A program made the translations under genes and the position numbers. Below, one piece after another: positions 18,672 to 28,496 of a stretch of DNA of 64,000 nucleotides. Origin of the DNA: Caproicibacterium sp. BJN0003 (lineage in GTDB: Bacteria; Bacillota; Clostridia; Oscillospirales; Acutalibacteraceae). The stretch covers positions 1,426,001-1,490,000 of the forward strand of contig NZ_CP111108.1 of the NCBI RefSeq assembly GCF_026314295.1, given 5' to 3'. Position 1 is the stretch's first letter; the number at the start of each line of letters is the position of its first letter. The notes below the pieces were generated by a model. It worked only from the letters and a program-made list of their open reading frames with translations. It was not told the DNA's origin and ran no database searches.

Positions 18672-19586
18672 CTATATTCTATTAATTTCACTTTGATTCA
18701 TAACAACAGAAGACGGAAGTCCTGTAATAACCTCCAAATAAACCGGCAGTGGCGGATGATGTTTTAAGAATGCCTGCCGAAGACGTTTTTCAACTTGCTT
18801 ACTGTCTTTTGACTTTTTTACCGGCAACATCAATACAAACTGATTCCGACTATAGCGACTGAACACATCTCCTTTTCGCATAGTTGTCTCAATGACTTTC
18901 TTTAGCATCGCCATCGTTTTATTGAATTGATCTTTAGAAAAATCCGTACCATTTTCCAATGACAAAGTAAGCAGCATTAAAATAACACAGTTATTTTCCC
19001 GATCAGCGCTTCTCACAATCATATGAAAAATATGTTTAAAGACTTCATAGGAACAAAAATAAGCGCCATTAATTGGCCGTTCATTGCGAATTGTTTCTTC
19101 CAAATCCTGTTCAATCTGATAGATATCCTTAATCGTATGATAAGTGCTGTTGGAAGCCCATTGATAAATATTTCGCACAATCTGAGGCATCTGTTCTCCC
19201 ATCTCATCAAAATAGGTCTGAGAAACAACTGGATAATAATTTAAAATTTCCTGTTTCATATCTAACTGCTGCATGGTTCTAAATAAAAGAATATACAGCT
19301 TTTCATTAAAAGGGTCTGTTAAAAGTGCCCGATTACAAATAGAAAGCAATTCATTCCAATAGTCCCGACTTCCTTTTGAAAAAAGCAAATCACTAATTAT
19401 TTCAATGGCATCCATATATAAACGGCGGTAATAAATCGACTGCTGAATTACCCACTGATGTTCAGATAATCCCGGCAAAAAGTCGCCGGTATATAACTGA
19501 ATTGCTCTACGGCAAAGCTGCAATTTTTCCTCTTCAAAAAGATCGTTATACTTTACTTTTAATACAATATCTTCAAAATCCCACAA
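18672..19586 (-). CDS. SARP-type regulator, C-terminal part: BTAD domain plus degenerate GGDEF-like region
   Basis: This reading frame carries the body of a BTAD-containing regulator. CRRAIQLYTGDFLPGLSEHQWV and YYRRLYMDAIEIISDLL start the helical BTAD repeat domain, followed by TPR-like helices. The last ~100 residues (MLKKVIETTMRKGDVFSRYSRNQFVLML) look like a GGDEF domain without an active-site GGDEF. The frame is open upstream to about 19664 and continues the winged-helix domain of the neighbouring frame (TEGKQYVWNPEIPVQVDLWDF), so the MWDFED start at 19586 is an artefact of the break. Together the two parts make a protein of about 412 residues. It precedes glnA and follows the giant surface-protein gene on the same strand. 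Confidence 0.8.
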   Translation of the reverse strand: MWDFEDIVLKVKYNDLFEEEKLQLCRRAIQLYTGDFLPGLSEHQWVIQQSIYYRRLYMDAIEIISDLLFSKGSRDYWNELLSICNRALLTDPFNEKLYILLFRTMQQLDMKQEILNYYPVVSQTYFDEMGEQMPQIVRNIYQWASNSTYHTIKDIYQIEQDLEETIRNERPINGAYFCSYEVFKHIFHMIVRSADRENNCVILMLLTLSLENGTDFSKDQFNKTMAMLKKVIETTMRKGDVFSRYSRNQFVLMLPVKKSKDSKQVEKRLRQAFLKHHPPLPVYLEVITGLPSSVVMNQSEINRI

Positions 19587-19588
19587 AT

Positions 19589-19909
19589 CTACTTGAACCG
19601 GAATTTCCGGATTCCAAACATACTGTTTCCCCTCTGTAAAAATAAAATTCGTCTCAGGGTCTGCTTTTTTAATAGTTTGCGCAACAAATAAACAGCCGAT
19701 TTTAATGCTCCGGCAGGATTATCCGCTTTACTGTCTTCATTCCATAGGCGGTTCATTAATTCTTCATTAGAAATTCTCAGATCGCGCTTTTGAAAAAGCA
19801 AAATCAACACCTCAAAAGGTTTATTAAGGCGCGTACCTGCTTCTACAATCCAATGGTTTTTCCAGCAAACGCTAAATTCACCAAACATCGTAACCTTAAA
19901 TGGTTCCAC
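19589..19909 (-). CDS. SARP-type regulator, N-terminal winged-helix part (frame-shifted from 18672-19586)
   Basis: A GTG start at 19909 with GGGAG upstream opens an OmpR/SARP-like DNA-binding domain: FKVTMFGEFSVCW, LNKPFEVLILLFQKRDLRISNEELMNRLW, and GALKSAVYLLRKLLKK. After Lys82 the frame becomes nonsense and stops at 19589, while the -1 frame continues the expected domain. The shift occurs at AAAAAAG (19664-19670), read here as A|AAA|AAG. It is either a programmed -1 site, a mutation in a run of seven A, or a sequencing error. Confidence 0.8.
   Translation of the reverse strand: MEPFKVTMFGEFSVCWKNHWIVEAGTRLNKPFEVLILLFQKRDLRISNEELMNRLWNEDSKADNPAGALKSAVYLLRKLLKKQTLRRILFLQRGNSMFGIRKFRFK
19664..19670 (-). 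other. A_AAA_AAG slippery heptamer at the frame transition of the SARP-type regulator
   Basis: The zero-frame codons are AAA and AAG. Slipping back one base makes the next codon GCA at 19664, which is exactly the first in-frame codon of the downstream part. This is the heptamer used by Escherichia coli dnaX. No convincing stimulatory stem-loop is visible immediately downstream. Confidence 0.55.
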
Positions 19910-20048
19910 TCTGCTCCCACCTTTCCATCCTGAAAATAGATTTGGTTACTTTTGGAATATTTTGTAAATTATTTTCTTTTTTCATTATATAAAATTTATT
20001 TTAAATATGCAAGAAGACAAGTTTATTTTAAAATATATAAAAAAAGAA

Positions 20049-20079
20049 AGCAGCCGCTTCAGGATTCAAAGCGGCTGCT
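20049..20079 (-). terminator. Terminator of the giant surface-protein gene
   Basis: An 11-bp stem AGCAGCCGCTT / AAGCGGCTGCT is followed on the minus strand by TTCTTTTTTTA. Confidence 0.9.
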
Positions 20080-20119
20080 CTTCATTTTTACAAAGAATGA
20101 TTTTTTGTTTTAATTGGAA

Positions 20120-23100
20120 TTACGCATTCGCATTTCTTTTTTGGTCGTTGTCATGATCTTCTTTGTCGTATCTTTTCTTAGAAAGGATCATAATTGCGAC
20201 TTGAATCACAGCAATAACTGCCATCATTACTGTCCACTGATCAAAAATAGCCATTGGATTGCTCATATTTTCTGTAAGAACAAATGCAATGATAGAACCA
20301 ACTGACGGAATCAAGCTGATAAAGCGCCATACTCCATGACGTTTCACTTGGTCTTTGTTTTCCTGATCATTCTGTGTGCTTGAGGCGATATATTGGTTTT
20401 GTTCTTTCTTTCTGCTTTCTTCCTCTTTTTTCTTACGGAAGAAGAAAGTAAGCAGAAGTGCTACACTGCCAAGTACTGTCAGAATACAAAAAATCAAATT
20501 CAGAAGTGCCCAATTCTCTGTTGGTGCTGCCTTTGGAGCAGGAGAATCCTGAAGTTGTACTTTCTCCGCTTTTTGGGCAGCGGGAGGATTCTGATCAGGC
20601 ACTGTTGTCGTTCCCTCTGTTACAATTTCTGGAGCCGGGGCAGGAGCTGGAGCTACCGGAGTCGCACCATTCGGCGTCGTTCCTGTCGGTATATGGTTAT
20701 TGATCGTAGGTGTTGTTGGAGGAACCGTTGGTGGGGTTACGGGCGGGACTACCGGCGGAATTACCGGAGCCGCAGTAATAGTAATTGCTCCATCCGTTAC
20801 TGAAAGCCGATAGTTATTGCGATAATAACTGGTCATTACCGCCCCTGTGATTGGGTCATTTTCTTTTTCATTGGTGCTGTTAGAAGCAACATTGTAGATA
20901 TCATATGTCATACTGTCTGTGAGCCCCATCTGGGTTGTTCCCACATCTGTGCGTTTCACAGAAAGTGTATCCGGATTAACGGTGAATCTGTATCCTTCCA
21001 AAATTCCTGTAACATCTGCACCACTGACTGTTTGCTCTGTTCCATTATAAACGAAGCTATTCGAATGGCCAATGATTGTAATTTTTGTAGGAGTGATCTT
21101 TGCAGGTGCCTTCAAGGTAAGCGTTTCCGGCAACTGATAATTTTTCGCTGCAGCTCCACTGAGGTTAAGGTGAGTCGCTTCTACCTCTTTCGCAGCATCA
21201 ACATTTGCACTGTTAAACAAAACATCTCCAGCAGCCGCAGTCAGCTGATCCTGATTTGGCAGGTCTTTTACCGTAATTGTATATTGGGGAGCTGTTCTGT
21301 TTCCATCATAAACTTTATCCGAAGCTTTGAACTTAAAATTTTCTTCAGTGATCTGATAAGGATAAATTGTTAAAGTGCTGTCCTGTGTACTGATTTGATA
21401 GTTTCCGGGGACTGCAGAACTGCCGGTAAGGGCTACATGAATTCCATAAGTCTGCGCGTCTTCTCCCGGATCACGGCTGAGAGAATATTCCAGTGTCTCA
21501 CCAGGAATCGTTCCGGTGACAGTCGCTGTTAATTCCGGATCGGAATCTCCGTAAGTCTTTGTTTTGGAATCTGCACTTACTGCAGCCTTAGCTGGAGTGA
21601 TCTTTGCTTTTGCTGTAATGTTATCAATTGACAGCTGATAATTAGAAGAAGCATCCCCTATCAATTTTAGCCCTGCTGCTGTTACATCTTTATCTACAAC
21701 ATTACCGCCATCATAAGAAACGTCTTTGTCAGAAAACTTCACACTTTGGGCTTCGACCTGAACTTTTTCCCCATCAACCGTCTTAACGGTTAATGTATAC
21801 TTCGGTTCCTCATCACTGCCATCATAAATCTTATTTTCTGCCTGCAAACTGATATCTGCAGCAGTAAGCAATTTTGCTTCGATTGAAAGGGTTCCAGGAA
21901 CATATTCGATCGAATAATTTTCGGTTACATCTGTCCCGTTTTCTGTAATTTTGGTGTTTTCATTCTGGAATGTTCCCTTATAAACACCCTTATCTGTTCC
22001 CTTTGCAGAATAGGAATACCCGCTCAGGGTCTGACCGGAAACAAGCGGTGTTTCATCAGAAATTTTTGCAGTCGTAATGGACTGTTCACTTCCAGAATAA
22101 ACTTTGCTCTCCGTCTCTCCAACAATCGTAGCCGAACGTTTGCTGATTACAACGGGATTTTTTATCACCGTCAGCGTATAGTTTTCGCTTTGCGCTCCCG
22201 TCAAAGTCGGATTGGATGCAAACGAAACTTCTTTTGCAGTTTCAGACGCATCTGCTGCAACGTTCCCTGTAATCGGTACATTGCTTAACGCTACATCATC
22301 ATTTCCGATTTTAACCTCATCCAGATTATGAGAGGCAGTGACTTCCACTACATTAGTACCATCATAGGGACGATCAATTGGAGTCAACGTCAATGTGACT
22401 TCCAGTTTTGTAATGATTCCTTTTGCAGCAACTGGATTTAAAATATAATTTCCAAGCTCATTCTTTTTAAGGGTAATCACTGCATTTGCATCTTTATCGG
22501 TGCCGGCATTCGGATCCACAAAAGTAAGAGAATCAAGTGACGCTGTTACTTCATTATCAAGGATTCCGTCGACGCTTACGATTTTGCCATCTGCATCAGT
22601 GGTGCCATCATATGGTTTTGAATCCACATTCACCGTTATGGTGACCGGACGCGGATTAATTGTCGCTGTAATCGATGCTTTATTCAGTGGATTTCCATTT
22701 TCGTCCAGAAGTTCATAATTGCCTGCCGAAGAACCACCCAGCTTGATATTGGTAACATTGACTGTTTTATCTGTGCCCTGGTTTTTATCCGCAAAAGCGA
22801 AATCTGCTGTCACCGAAATTTTTGAGATGTCAGCCATTCCACCGGCCTTATCGGAATCAAGAAGGTTCATTGTATTAAAAGCTATGACTCCGTCAGCATT
22901 TACCGTGCTGTCATAAATCTTATCTTTCGCGGACAAAACGACATCCGTTCCAAGTTTTAAAGCACGTTTTGTAATGCTGGCTTCTGTTGTTTCAACAGTT
23001 GGCTGATAATTTTTAGCATCACTGCCTATTAATCCAACTCCATGGGCGGTCACCGTTTTGTTTGTTCCCACCTGCTCATCGTCAAAAGTGGCCGTTGCTT

Positions 23101-26100
23101 TCTCCCAGCTGACTTCTACCTGATCATTTTGGATCAAACCATCGCACGAAGCTCCGGTAAGAGTCGCCGTTTGATTTCCATCGTATGGTTTATCAGCAGC
23201 TGTAATTGCAATAGTTACCGGTTTCGCAGTGATATTTGCGGTTGTGGTATCCTCTGCAGAAATCAGTGCAAAATCCCCTTTTGCATTATTGGCAAGAGCA
23301 ATTCCTGTTACCGCAACCATCTTTCCTTCTCCGACATTTTTATCAGAGAAATTCGCTTCTGCATTCTCTGTATTAATGGTAACTCCCGCTTCATTAAGTA
23401 GCTGCTTTACTCGATCAGAAGCACTAAATTCACTGGACTCAATCGCTGCATTCGTATTTCCGTCATATTCCTTATCACTTACTTTGATATTGGCCGTTAC
23501 CAAGAGAGGAGTAATATTTGCTTTTGTTGAAAGCACTTCAGGCATTACATAATTTCCAGCATCTTTTCCATCAAGAGTAATTCCTGAAATTGTAACTTCT
23601 TTATCGGTTCCAACATCAGCCGTATCAAATTGGAAACTGAGTTTTGAAAAATTAAATGCAGCATCGTCTTCTCCTATAATTCTATCCAAAACTGTGACAG
23701 CCCCAGTTGCATGCGTTGTACCATCATAAGATTTATTGTCGGCAGAAACTATTAAAGCCAGTTCTTTTGCAGTAATATTTGCCGTAGCAGACGCTGTGCC
23801 TTTAATAAAATAATTGCCGCAATCGTTTCCGGAAAGTGTAATCCCGTTCACGGCAACAGTTTTATCTGTTCCAACATTCTTATCCTCAAATTGGAAATTC
23901 CCACCGCTTACCGTAACCTGATCATTTCCGATGATCCCTTGAAGACTTCCAAAAGTCCCTTTGGCATTGGTACTTCCGTCATAAACTTTATCTTCTGCGT
24001 AGGCGCTGACCGAAAGCTCCTTTGGATCAATCACACCAGTTCCACTTACAGAAAGTGTATAATTTTTGGCGCTATCTCCGCTCAGCTCCACTCCTTCGAT
24101 GGTCAAAGCTTTATTGGAACCAGCATTCTGATTATCGAATACTGCTGTAACATGGTCGGTGTTATACTGAATCTCATCTCCACTAACCGCTCCGGTCACG
24201 ATCATCTTGCTCAAAAAGTCTTTTGCTTCTGCGGTTCCGTCATAAGTCTTTCTTGCCGTAAAGGTTCCTGTCAAAGGCTTTGGATTAATCGTCACAGCCG
24301 CACTGCCAATCACAGGTGCGTAATTTGGATCACTGCTCTTAGCTTCCACATAAACGGTTACAGAACCAACGTCTTTCTGCACAATTGGATCAGACTGCCA
24401 TGTTGTTCCGTCCGTACTATAGAAAATCTCATCAGTAGCTCCGGAAACAGGTGTGATTTCATAAGTGACACCATGCTCATTTCCGTCATACGTGAAGGTT
24501 CCTCCGGTAACTGTTAGGTTGCGCTGTGCCTGATCGACCGTAAGGGTTCCGCTTTCATACTGGAAATTATAATCATTTGCTTTTCCACCAGAAGGCATCA
24601 ATGTATGTGATCCAGACACTGTTGGTTTTATAACGGTCGGTGCAGTGTATTCCAATGCTGTAGAAGCCGTTTCATGATTAACGAATCCAGAAACCACAAC
24701 ATCCGTCTGCGGATCATAACTTTCGAGATCAGCATAGTTGATCGTTTTTCCATGGTAAGCTGCAGTCAAAACAGCCGGATTGATGGTTACAGTTGCAGAG
24801 CCATAATAAGCTGTGTAATGGTCTTTAGTCACCTGATAACTGACCGCATAAGATTCCACACCCTCTGCGGAATTTCTTTTTACGTGAGTAAAAGAGGGGC
24901 TCTGCGTGAGTGTGTAGTTCCCGTTTTCGTCCATATACCGAACATCGGCGCCCTCAGCATCTCCGGAAAGCGCCACTGCGATTCCATAAGCGTGACCATC
25001 ATAAGTTTTTACTACATTAGGAGCACTTACTCCGGCATTCATATTTCCATTATGGGAAAACACTGCATAATAAGTAGTATTGCCGGTTACTTTTGCGCTC
25101 GTCATTTCATCGACGGTCACCTTTTGACCGTTCTGATTCTGCCATTCTACAAAATAACATTCATTGTTGGGCAGCGTAGTCGGAATATCATCAGATTTAA
25201 GTGAATTCTGATAATCAACGGTTGCACTTGACTTATCAAGGCTTCCATAAGTTTCGCTTCCCGATTTTACTGCAAAATTCACGGTATACTGGTCAATTGC
25301 TCTACTGCAGTAGACATCGACATTATTAGAGGGCATCGTAACAACCATTCCAAACCAACCGCTGAAATGATATCCTTCTTCTGCCGGCATCGGCTCCGCT
25401 GTAACAGACTGCCCGACCTTATAACTGTCGGTCTTATAAATTTCACCGTCAACGCTATTATAGTGATAAGTAATGGTATAGCTTCTAAGATCGAATTTTA
25501 CGTACTGTACTCCTCCTGAAATAGTCTGCGGATTGTTGGCATTTGGAGTATACTCTTTTTCGTCATATGCAACTGTTGGAATCTTTTCTGGGGCAGATTG
25601 AAGCTGGTTTCCAATCAGCGTTTTAAACGTTGTATAGCTGCCGTCCAGATTTTCCATCTGATAGTAAACGGAATAGAGTTCCATTTTGTCATAGACAAAC
25701 GTATATTCATGATTTTCTTTTGTAAGGACTGCAGAAGTATCCTGAACCTGATACCCCCCAATTGCCTGATAAAAAACGACCATAGAAGCAGCACTAGAAG
25801 TACCGGTGGTATCTGCTGCGATCTGAGTCCCCGAAGTATCCTTATAATGAATCGTATAGCTCCAGTTATCCAGCTTTTTATAGGCTAGTTTAATTTCAAT
25901 CTGATCACGATTCAAAACCACGCTGGTACTCGTAACGACAGGCTGATATCCATCAATTGCTTTTGCAGAAACCGTAACCGTGCTGTTCGGCTGACCGCTG
26001 CCGGTATCGGAAGGAGCGATCTCTTTTGTAGGGTCGTCTGCATCTACATATTTAATAGTATAGGTATCAGTCGTATTGGTGCTGTAATTTGCCCGAAGCG

Positions 26101-28119
26101 TTGTATCTTCTATAATCTGAGTTGAAAAGCTAAAAGGTACTCCATTTCTGGTCCAGCCTTTAAACGTATCCGTTCCGCGAATTGGATCTTCCGGTTTTTG
26201 GGCTGTTCCGCCGGCTGTAAAAGTTTGAGAATCAATTTGGGTTCCGCCCAGGGTGTCAAAAGTAACCGTTACTTGTTTAGGCACCCATTTTGCATATAAA
26301 AGCAAATCTTTTGCCGGCATGGTTTTTCCTTCAAATGTATAAGCATCTCCGGCTAAGGCTTCATTGTCATACCAGCCTGCAAAGTACAGAGTCCTCCCAT
26401 TTTCTGTTTTCGTGGTTATTCCAACCTGGTAATTTTGAGGTGCCTGATTGGAGATATCCTGCTCATATGGGATACTGGTTACATCACCGACCGCTGGCCC
26501 TCCATTGGTAATAAACTCAAGGTCATAAGAATTGCGCGTGTAGTAAATATAGTAGTCATCCGAATCCCCATAACGATTAGAGTTATAAGTAAAGCCCGGA
26601 AGATCAATAAAGTCTTCATTTGTAAAATTCCAATCGCTATCTCTTTTCACTTCAAAAGGATCATGAATTTGATGATCCGTTCCATACTCATAATAATAAA
26701 TAGTGCTCGAGCCATCCGATTTTTGCCCATATACCGTCAAACCGCCTTCCGGCATTGTGGGGGCTGCTGTATAAAAAGTATCTCCATGTTTGGAAGTATA
26801 CCAAAGATAATCACTATTTTGGGCACTCGCTTCATCCCACCATTTTTGAAGGGACTGCTGATATTTGATATCGGTATGGGTATAAACAGCCTGCCAGCTA
26901 CCACTCCACCAACTGTTCTTATAAATTTCAAAAGTGAGTGTATAGGTCTTGCGCTGATAATAAACATTCCGGATCGTCGTTCCTTCGCCTGAAACAGTCA
27001 CTGCGCTCTCATCTGTTTTTTCCTGATTTAATTCGAACCCAGGTTCATTAAGAGCATCATAATCCGCATCCGTTCCTGTTAAGCCGCTGCGTTCTACCTT
27101 ACTGTCATAAGAATATCCGTCGTCATCGGCATTTTCTTTCCAATAAACTACCGTATACTTAACTTCGGTAGCTTTCCATTTACTGGTCAAGGTAATATCC
27201 TGCGCCGGCATCGTCGAATAGGATTCATTCCATCCATCGAACTCATAACCGGTCTTTGTAGGATTTTGAGGTTGAGCAATCGCCTGTCCGTAACGGTAAA
27301 TAACCGGATCAATATAACTGCCGCCATCCGTATCATAGCTTAAAGTATATTGATTACGATCATAGAAAATTTCAACAATTGTACTTCCGTCCGGAGCAAT
27401 CGAAGTCTGCGTTACAGACTGAGGGGTAAATCCTTCGACTGTTTTCGCTTTCGCATCAGTCTGATTGCCAGCCTCTCCCGAAAGCGTTTGCGTCAAGCTG
27501 TCATTCACAATATAATCTGTTCCTTCTTCATTCTGAAACAGATGCTTTACAGTATAAGTCTGCATCCCTGACGTATAGGTGACTTTTTCTGTTACATTTG
27601 CTGCAATGCTGCTCACATTCAAACTAACAGCAGCTCTGTCCGGCGTAAATCCGGTAATAGCAGGAGATTTTACATTTGCAGTAAAATCCTTTCCCTGTTC
27701 AACTTCCGCCACATAAGAGGGAGAGGCCATTGTACCATCGCCAAAAACATAATTAATGGTAACTTTATATTTAGCGAGTACACGATATTGTGCATGAATT
27801 TTCAAATTTTCAGTGATATTGGAAAAAGATTGATCCCAACCGGTAAAGCAATAGCCATCTTTTCCAGATACCCGCGGCTCTAGTGCAGTTCCTCCTTTTT
27901 CAATCTGCTGAGAGGAAATCAACTGACTCTCAGCTTCATCTGCATAAAACTCCACCGTATAATATGTTGGGTCTTTTGCTTTTCTGAAGAAGTTGCAGAC
28001 GAGGATGCCGATTGTGCAGTATCCTGTGCAAAAGCGGTCATCGGTGCCATCGTAGCGATCATGCCCACCGTCAGCGCAAGACTTACGATACGGTTCCATA
28101 AATTTCTGCCTTTTTTCAT
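20120..28119 (-). CDS. Giant repetitive surface protein (InlB-like, YDG and MBG repeats), frameshifted just after the signal peptide
   Basis: The intended start is the ATG at 28119 (AGGAGGT upstream), giving a signal peptide MKKGRNLWNRIVSLALTVGM...TAFA and a Ser-rich linker. At the A4 run 27980-27983 the frame must move by -1 to join DPTYYTVEFYADE and the remaining ~2,600 residues. Order in the mature part: several Listeria-Bacteroides (InlB B-type) units with FTGWDQSF/FDGWNESY motifs (about 27.9-26.1 kb), MucBP-like units (about 26.1-25.4 kb), more InlB-like and linker units, then about ten YDG repeats (DKVYDGSTNA, NKSYDGTTHA, DKEYDGNTNA and so on) mixed with MBG-type units (TYGDSDPEL, VYNGTEQT) from about 24.9 to 20.9 kb. 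A Pro-rich stretch follows, and a C-terminal region with about three membrane helices. There is no LPXTG. A role in adhesion or matrix is inferred. Confidence 0.82.
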
Positions 28120-28292
28120 TGAATATGTACCTCCTACTCCCATCTTTGTCAGAATATGAAAGATATTTAAAAAGGATTCTACAAATTTAATTTTTTGTAA
28201 TATTGTTTGTACAATCTCCCAAATTATAGCAAAACTTGTTTTAATTCTCCAAATATTTAAAATACAGTATTTTACTACTAATTTTGAGATTT

Positions 28293-28328
28293 AGTATAAT
28301 TCTGTTTGGTCACAAAACGGTCACAAAA
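28293..28328 (-). promoter_or_regulatory. Promoter of the giant surface gene with an 11-bp direct repeat
   Basis: GGTCACAAAA occurs twice, at 28308-28317 and 28319-28328, with an 11-base period. On the minus strand the repeats lie nine bases upstream of a TATACT -10 element (28293-28298). This is the architecture of SARP activator sites, and a SARP-type regulator gene lies downstream of the controlled gene. A second possible promoter (TTGGAG, 18-base spacer, TATAAT) lies nearer the gene, around 28220-28250. Confidence 0.55.
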
Positions 28329-28426: not shown

Positions 28427-28496
28427 AAAGCCCCTTTAGAGCTGCTGTTTAGTTAACGAAACTGCTAACTTAACATCAACCACTAAAGGGGTTTTA
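28427..28496. repeat. Long inverted repeat with a 45-base loop
   Basis: AAAGCCCCTTTAG pairs with CTAAAGGGGTTTT (one mismatch) around an AT-rich loop containing GTTTAGTTAACGAAAC. On the minus strand it lies beyond the glutamate synthase genes but upstream of nothing else; on that strand it could terminate read-through from the glt operon only in the opposite sense, so it may simply be a bidirectional terminator. Confidence 0.4.

Follow-up and report, generated by a model that had tools for sequence, protein, structure and literature searches.

The window analyzed here, a 64,000-nucleotide stretch of the Caproicibacterium sp. BJN0003 genome, carries on its minus strand a giant gene (20120–28119) encoding a surface protein with a signal peptide and InlB-type, YDG, and MBG repeats. 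The gene begins at the ATG at 28119, with a signal peptide, and not at 28099. The C-terminal membrane-anchor domain (FILTED, NF052597; 20156–20512, minus strand) scored 129.9 bits (E = 4.9e-38) against a family cutoff of 40. A presumed 5' untranslated region with an AGGAGG ribosome-binding site precedes the gene (28120–28286, minus strand, from a putative start point); this leader of approximately 165 nt is highly conserved in congeners and includes AACAATATTACAAAAAATTAAATTTGTAGAATCC, and control at the RNA level is possible. Downstream of the surface gene, past an intrinsic terminator with a 15-pair stem and a T tract in the interval between the two genes (20047–20081, minus strand), lies a regulator gene (18672–19909, minus strand) whose product combines a Trans_reg_C winged helix, a BTAD domain, and a degenerate GGDEF domain.

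Both genes are interrupted in the window assembly by one-base deletions. The surface gene lacks one base of a C run roughly 50 codons from its start, as judged from intact copies in genomes G009 and G006, and the signal peptide is therefore out of frame with the rest of the giant protein; compared with the intact orthologue in G009, the regulator gene is one base short in an A run. These frameshifts may reflect a real loss of the system, but an assembly error is as likely, because both are one-base homopolymer deletions and the relatives are intact.

Read in the direction of the giant gene (minus strand, 28328 to 28293), the promoter region is TTT TGTGACC GTTT TGTGACC AAACAGAAT TATACT, with the plus strand at 28308–28328 reading GGTCACAAAACGGTCACAAAA. 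On the minus strand, the upstream TGTGACC half-site (28319–28325) and its downstream copy (28308–28314) lie 11 bp apart, are identical in G009 and G006, and are followed by a 9-nt gap (28299–28307), constant in length and variable in sequence across genera, and by the -10 element TATACT (28293–28298). The preliminary description had singled out exactly this arrangement, and the sequence bears it out: the operator is the sole exact repeat of at least 10 nt at offset 11 in the 64 kb, while control offsets of 13 to 299 gave a mean of 0.18 such repeats, or 0.02 when a -10-like box was required after the repeat. Its remark that no good -35 is present also held, since no hexamer 16 to 18 nt from TATACT matched more than one of the six bases of TTGACA. 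In pattern searches of the 2.46-Mb genome, the exact window repeat occurred once, and sites with up to three mismatches remained at the control level (13 versus 12). Upstream of the promoter, a terminator-like hairpin (28429–28443, minus strand) divides it from glutamate-synthase-like genes. A second promoter-like site of the extended -10 type (28251–28223) was discarded for lack of conservation, its TATAAT being TGTAAT or TGCAAT in congeners.

The FILTED gene and a close regulator orthologue co-occurred in 4 of 11 genomes of the genus and were always adjacent. Two congeners with an intact gene pair and a readable promoter keep the half-sites, the 9-nt gap, and the -10 element. Across these two genomes and the window, 31 of the 33 columns spanning operator, gap, and -10 were invariant, including all 14 half-site columns, with 81 and 84 invariant columns per 100 in the flanks, the figure of 84 applying downstream of the -10. 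Loss of the repeats from relatives retaining both genes, named beforehand as the finding that would speak against the proposal, was looked for and not seen in these two congeners. Four congeners that lack FILTED (L034, L035, L036, and L037) encode a distant relative of the regulator (approximately 26 to 28% identity), mostly beside a gene for a hexapeptide-repeat (gamma-carbonic-anhydrase-like) protein.

The regulator itself resembles Streptomyces antibiotic regulatory proteins (SARPs) in both sequence and predicted fold. Its N-terminal OmpR-type winged helix (PF00486) scored 28 bits against a cutoff of 26.2, the BTAD domain that follows (PF03704) scored 38.7 to 40.9 bits against a cutoff of 22.1, and a sequence match to AfsR spanned both (E = 1e-16). 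In a structure model of the intact orthologue from L084 (mean pLDDT, 83.6), residues 1 to 258 matched EmbR (Z, 17.4; rmsd, 4.8; 249 aligned) and AfsR (Z, 16.7; rmsd, 4.1; 242 aligned), and residues 285 to 416 matched GGDEF domains. The preliminary description took the gene for the only SARP-type gene in view, which is correct for the window; the genome, however, holds a second BTAD protein. The GG(D/E)EF signature of an active diguanylate cyclase was found in none of 42 regulators, yet the RxxD motif of the c-di-GMP inhibitory site, five residues before the GGDEF position, was kept in 41 of 42 and aligned in register with its counterpart in SadC. Because the catalytic signature is lost and the RxxD motif is kept, the degenerate domain probably reads c-di-GMP, retention of RxxD being only suggestive since ordinary GGDEF proteins carry it too. 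An ordinary GGEEF protein is encoded in congener G009, so c-di-GMP is probably made in the genus.

Searching 84,980 species genomes for the FILTED domain yielded 78 loci. In 1.42 Mb of mostly FILTED loci, seven perfect TGTRACC pairs occurred at offset 11, all directly upstream of FILTED genes and exactly 9 nt from TATNNT, and every other offset from 8 to 31 gave at most one. A grid of spacer against gap lengths showed signal at a gap of 9 with a spacer of 4 (10 regions) or 5 (5 regions). An initial scan, confined to the nearest 350 bp, missed promoters with 12-bp spacing and those separated from the FILTED gene by a small leading gene; a wider scan recovered promoters absent from the first, giving 20 FILTED promoters with an operator. 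The 11-bp period (spacer 4) was found in the window and its congeners, Gemmiger, UBA1433, an Oscillospiraceae genome, Anaerovorax, G1090, and others, and the 12-bp period (spacer 5) in Bittarella, Neobittarella, Christensenella hongkongensis, G898, and RUI358. Seven genes had NTGACGN half-sites with a 12-bp period and a gap of 9, and MH27-2 (L056, handle G144) had TCATAGC-N4-TCATAGC-N9-TAAAAT. Recurrence of this architecture before FILTED genes in other families supports the proposal of a regulator-target system outside Actinobacteria. An operator was recognized in about one-third of the FILTED upstream regions examined, using motif definitions that had been refined on the same promoters later counted. 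Among the remaining two-thirds, some regions are truncated or mis-started, and others may carry half-sites of an unrecognized type.

More independent in this respect is an unbiased search of 316 genomes for the exact operator, which returned four sites against one for the reversed-pattern control. Three of the four precede genes for secreted surface proteins in genomes that carry the regulator: the window's own site and two in G041, one before the gene for a tip-pilin-like protein with a VWA domain and the other before that for a small protein bearing a signal peptide and a membrane anchor. The fourth lies in G479, where the regulator was not detected. Anaerovorax has two more surface genes with near-perfect sites and the 9-nt gap, one of them encoding VWA and Cna_B domains. 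In L073, L074, L075, and L076, neither the regulator genes nor the pilus operons had an offset-11 repeat upstream.

Several further features accompany FILTED loci. A small gene (approximately 115 to 150 amino acids), sometimes with the operator in front, sits beside FILTED genes (L056, 14660–15013; L073, 8888–9304) and also precedes them in L072, L104, and L158. Its product ends in a sequence like WQGxxxWxxxxxxxFRSxLELLxxxD, and the two copies scanned matched no Pfam or NCBIfam family. Outside the window's genus, the FILTED gene and the regulator lie beside a type IV pilus cluster with PilT and PilC-type proteins (L073, 15674–19957; L056, 16727–19001; L076, 3594–8384), a neighborhood that suggests a shared surface function. 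In L119 and L153, whose regulators include another subfamily, an inverted repeat (TTGGAC-N5-GTCCAA) stands upstream of FILTED in place of the direct repeats. Tandem or divergent TGTAACC pairs with no -10 at 9 nt were also seen in Bittarella and Candidatus Colimonas (L196, 7393–7432; L198, 5258 and 5353; L199, 1736 and 1824) and are possibly further sites of the same regulators.

The form of the half-sites raises the question of whether another regulator might read them. OmpR-family two-component response regulators also bind 11-bp direct repeats, and WalR, the most likely of them, controls cell-envelope genes in Firmicutes; its box is TGTWAH-N5-TGTWAH, a consensus that the TGTAACC variants of other genomes fit (PMC9210968). 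The window sequence TGTGAC, however, breaks TGTWAH at position 4 in both halves, its repeat is a single occurrence in the genome, and neither the 12-bp spacing nor the TGACG and TCATAGC half-sites suit WalR. Furthermore, FILTED genes co-occur with the BTAD regulator, and the type of operator follows the BTAD-regulator tree, as detailed below. We therefore regard a WalR-type explanation as very unlikely, and the neighboring SARP-like regulator as the protein for which the window repeats are very probably the docking site.

Across genomes, this regulator is closely associated with FILTED. Of the 27 genomes with FILTED that were examined, 26 had a full-length regulator; in the window's genome it is split into two frame-shifted pieces, and G050 has FILTED proteins and no regulator. 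Among 391 genomes sampled across the class, the regulator occurred in 36: all 5 with FILTED above the cutoff versus 31 of the other 386 (Fisher p = 5e-6). In a tree of 41 regulators, genomes with the 12-bp operator had regulators in one clade and those with the 11-bp operator in the other. The one exception was G1149, whose operator has 12-bp spacing but whose regulator, on a long branch, falls on the 11-bp side. G1132 has regulators in both clades and was excluded from the counts. The TGACG operators mapped to a single subclade. Spacing changed twice on the tree and operator type four times, values reached by none of 1,000 label shuffles, in a test that counts related genomes and whose shuffles keep that relatedness in. 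Taxonomy does not explain the operator types, because both spacings occur within Oscillospiraceae and within Anaerovoracaceae.

Such parallel trees could arise from linked inheritance, as the regulator lies within 10 kb of a FILTED gene in 28 of 90 loci, and the regulator and surface genes might simply be inherited together while some other co-travelling protein reads the repeats. Yet the association persists in G1128, G1131, G1133, G898, and G041, where regulator and operator lie on separate contigs or tens of kilobases apart, which speaks against simple inheritance of the locus as a unit, and the targets include unrelated surface proteins such as those of the VWA/Cna_B pilin-like type. We consider shared inheritance alone a very unlikely account. 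Recognition of the repeats by the SARP-like regulator is the reading favored by the SARP fold, the recurrent operator, its covariation with regulator clades, and the co-occurrence with FILTED, all of which uphold the SARP-type interpretation originally given to this pair. The pair is nonetheless less exclusive than that description implied: regulator and target are indeed associated, but "dedicated" is too narrow, as one regulator can serve several surface genes. In several genomes the same operator precedes two or three surface genes; the regulator gene, moreover, often lies elsewhere.

Our best explanation, which we hold with considerable confidence, is that 28293–28328 is an activator-dependent promoter served by the regulator encoded downstream. 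Two regulator monomers would bind side by side on the TGTGACC half-sites, one helical turn apart, occupy the usual place of the -35, and bring RNA polymerase to the TATACT -10, so activating expression of the giant membrane-anchored FILTED protein; the degenerate GGDEF domain would couple that expression to c-di-GMP. The mechanism proposed here is the one seen in structures of AfsR, whose binding site comprises two direct repeats of 11 bp that overlap the -35 (PMC10936776). Alternatively, the regulator may bind the repeats and repress, with c-di-GMP or another signal relieving the block, as the operator sits where RNA polymerase binds. The repeats, however, cover no usable -35, as expected of a promoter that depends on an activator. 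Activation is also in keeping with the AfsR structures (PMC10936776) and with the distance of 9 nt to the -10, which stays the same from genus to genus. We judge repression very unlikely, and we infer that the regulator binds the site and acts as an activator.

Collectively, the regulator-and-repeat arrangement recurs before surface-protein genes in many gut Clostridia and appears to be undescribed; in the literature that we searched on FILTED and on clostridial or other Firmicutes proteins of the SARP/BTAD type, neither this system nor the regulation of the FILTED family was described. More broadly, and tentatively, with confidence just short of even, we propose an undescribed, widespread group of c-di-GMP-reading SARP-type activators in Clostridia that switch on surface proteins (FILTED giants and pilin-like proteins of the VWA/Cna_B type). 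They would do so via a portable promoter built on direct repeats, in which both the half-site and the spacing of 11 or 12 bp evolved together with the activator. The activation mechanism of actinobacterial antibiotic clusters would then, with a new sensory domain, govern the surface of gut Clostridia. The pattern TGTNACC-N4/5-TGTNACC-N9-TATNNT is simple enough for sequence-based regulon prediction, the regulator-operator series, with three half-site types and two spacings, offers a natural experiment on the evolution of DNA-binding specificity, and the link between c-di-GMP and giant surface proteins is testable.

Among known systems, the closest are the SARPs (AfsR, EmbR, ActII-ORF4, DnrI, and PimR), which by sequence and model share the N-terminal OmpR-type winged helix and BTAD domain and whose operators likewise consist of directly repeated heptamers with an 11-bp period, immediately before the -10 and replacing the -35. 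The distance to the -10 is 8 bp for SARP sites (PMC10936776) and 9 nt, counted from the heptamer end, for the window operator, which has the same 11-bp period. A review describes SARPs as exclusive to actinobacteria (PMC10972967). We classify the regulator as SARP-like rather than as a classical SARP because its members are found in Clostridia and its predicted targets are surface proteins, not antibiotic clusters; it also differs in its C-terminal degenerate GGDEF domain, in place of NOD/TPR, FHA, or LAL regions, and, in one clade, in its 12-bp spacing. WalR/VicR and PhoB/PhoP share the type of DNA-binding domain and direct-repeat operators near the -35, but they have a receiver domain and no BTAD, and the window site misses TGTWAH. 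As a surface protein, the giant gene product belongs with the NCBIfam FILTED proteins (NF052597), scoring far above the family cutoff. PelD-type c-di-GMP receptors have a GGDEF fold that has lost the catalytic motif and retains the RxxD I-site. The regulator shows the same loss and the same retention, and it differs from PelD in that the GGDEF-like domain, a putative c-di-GMP reader, is fused to a SARP-type DNA-binding module.
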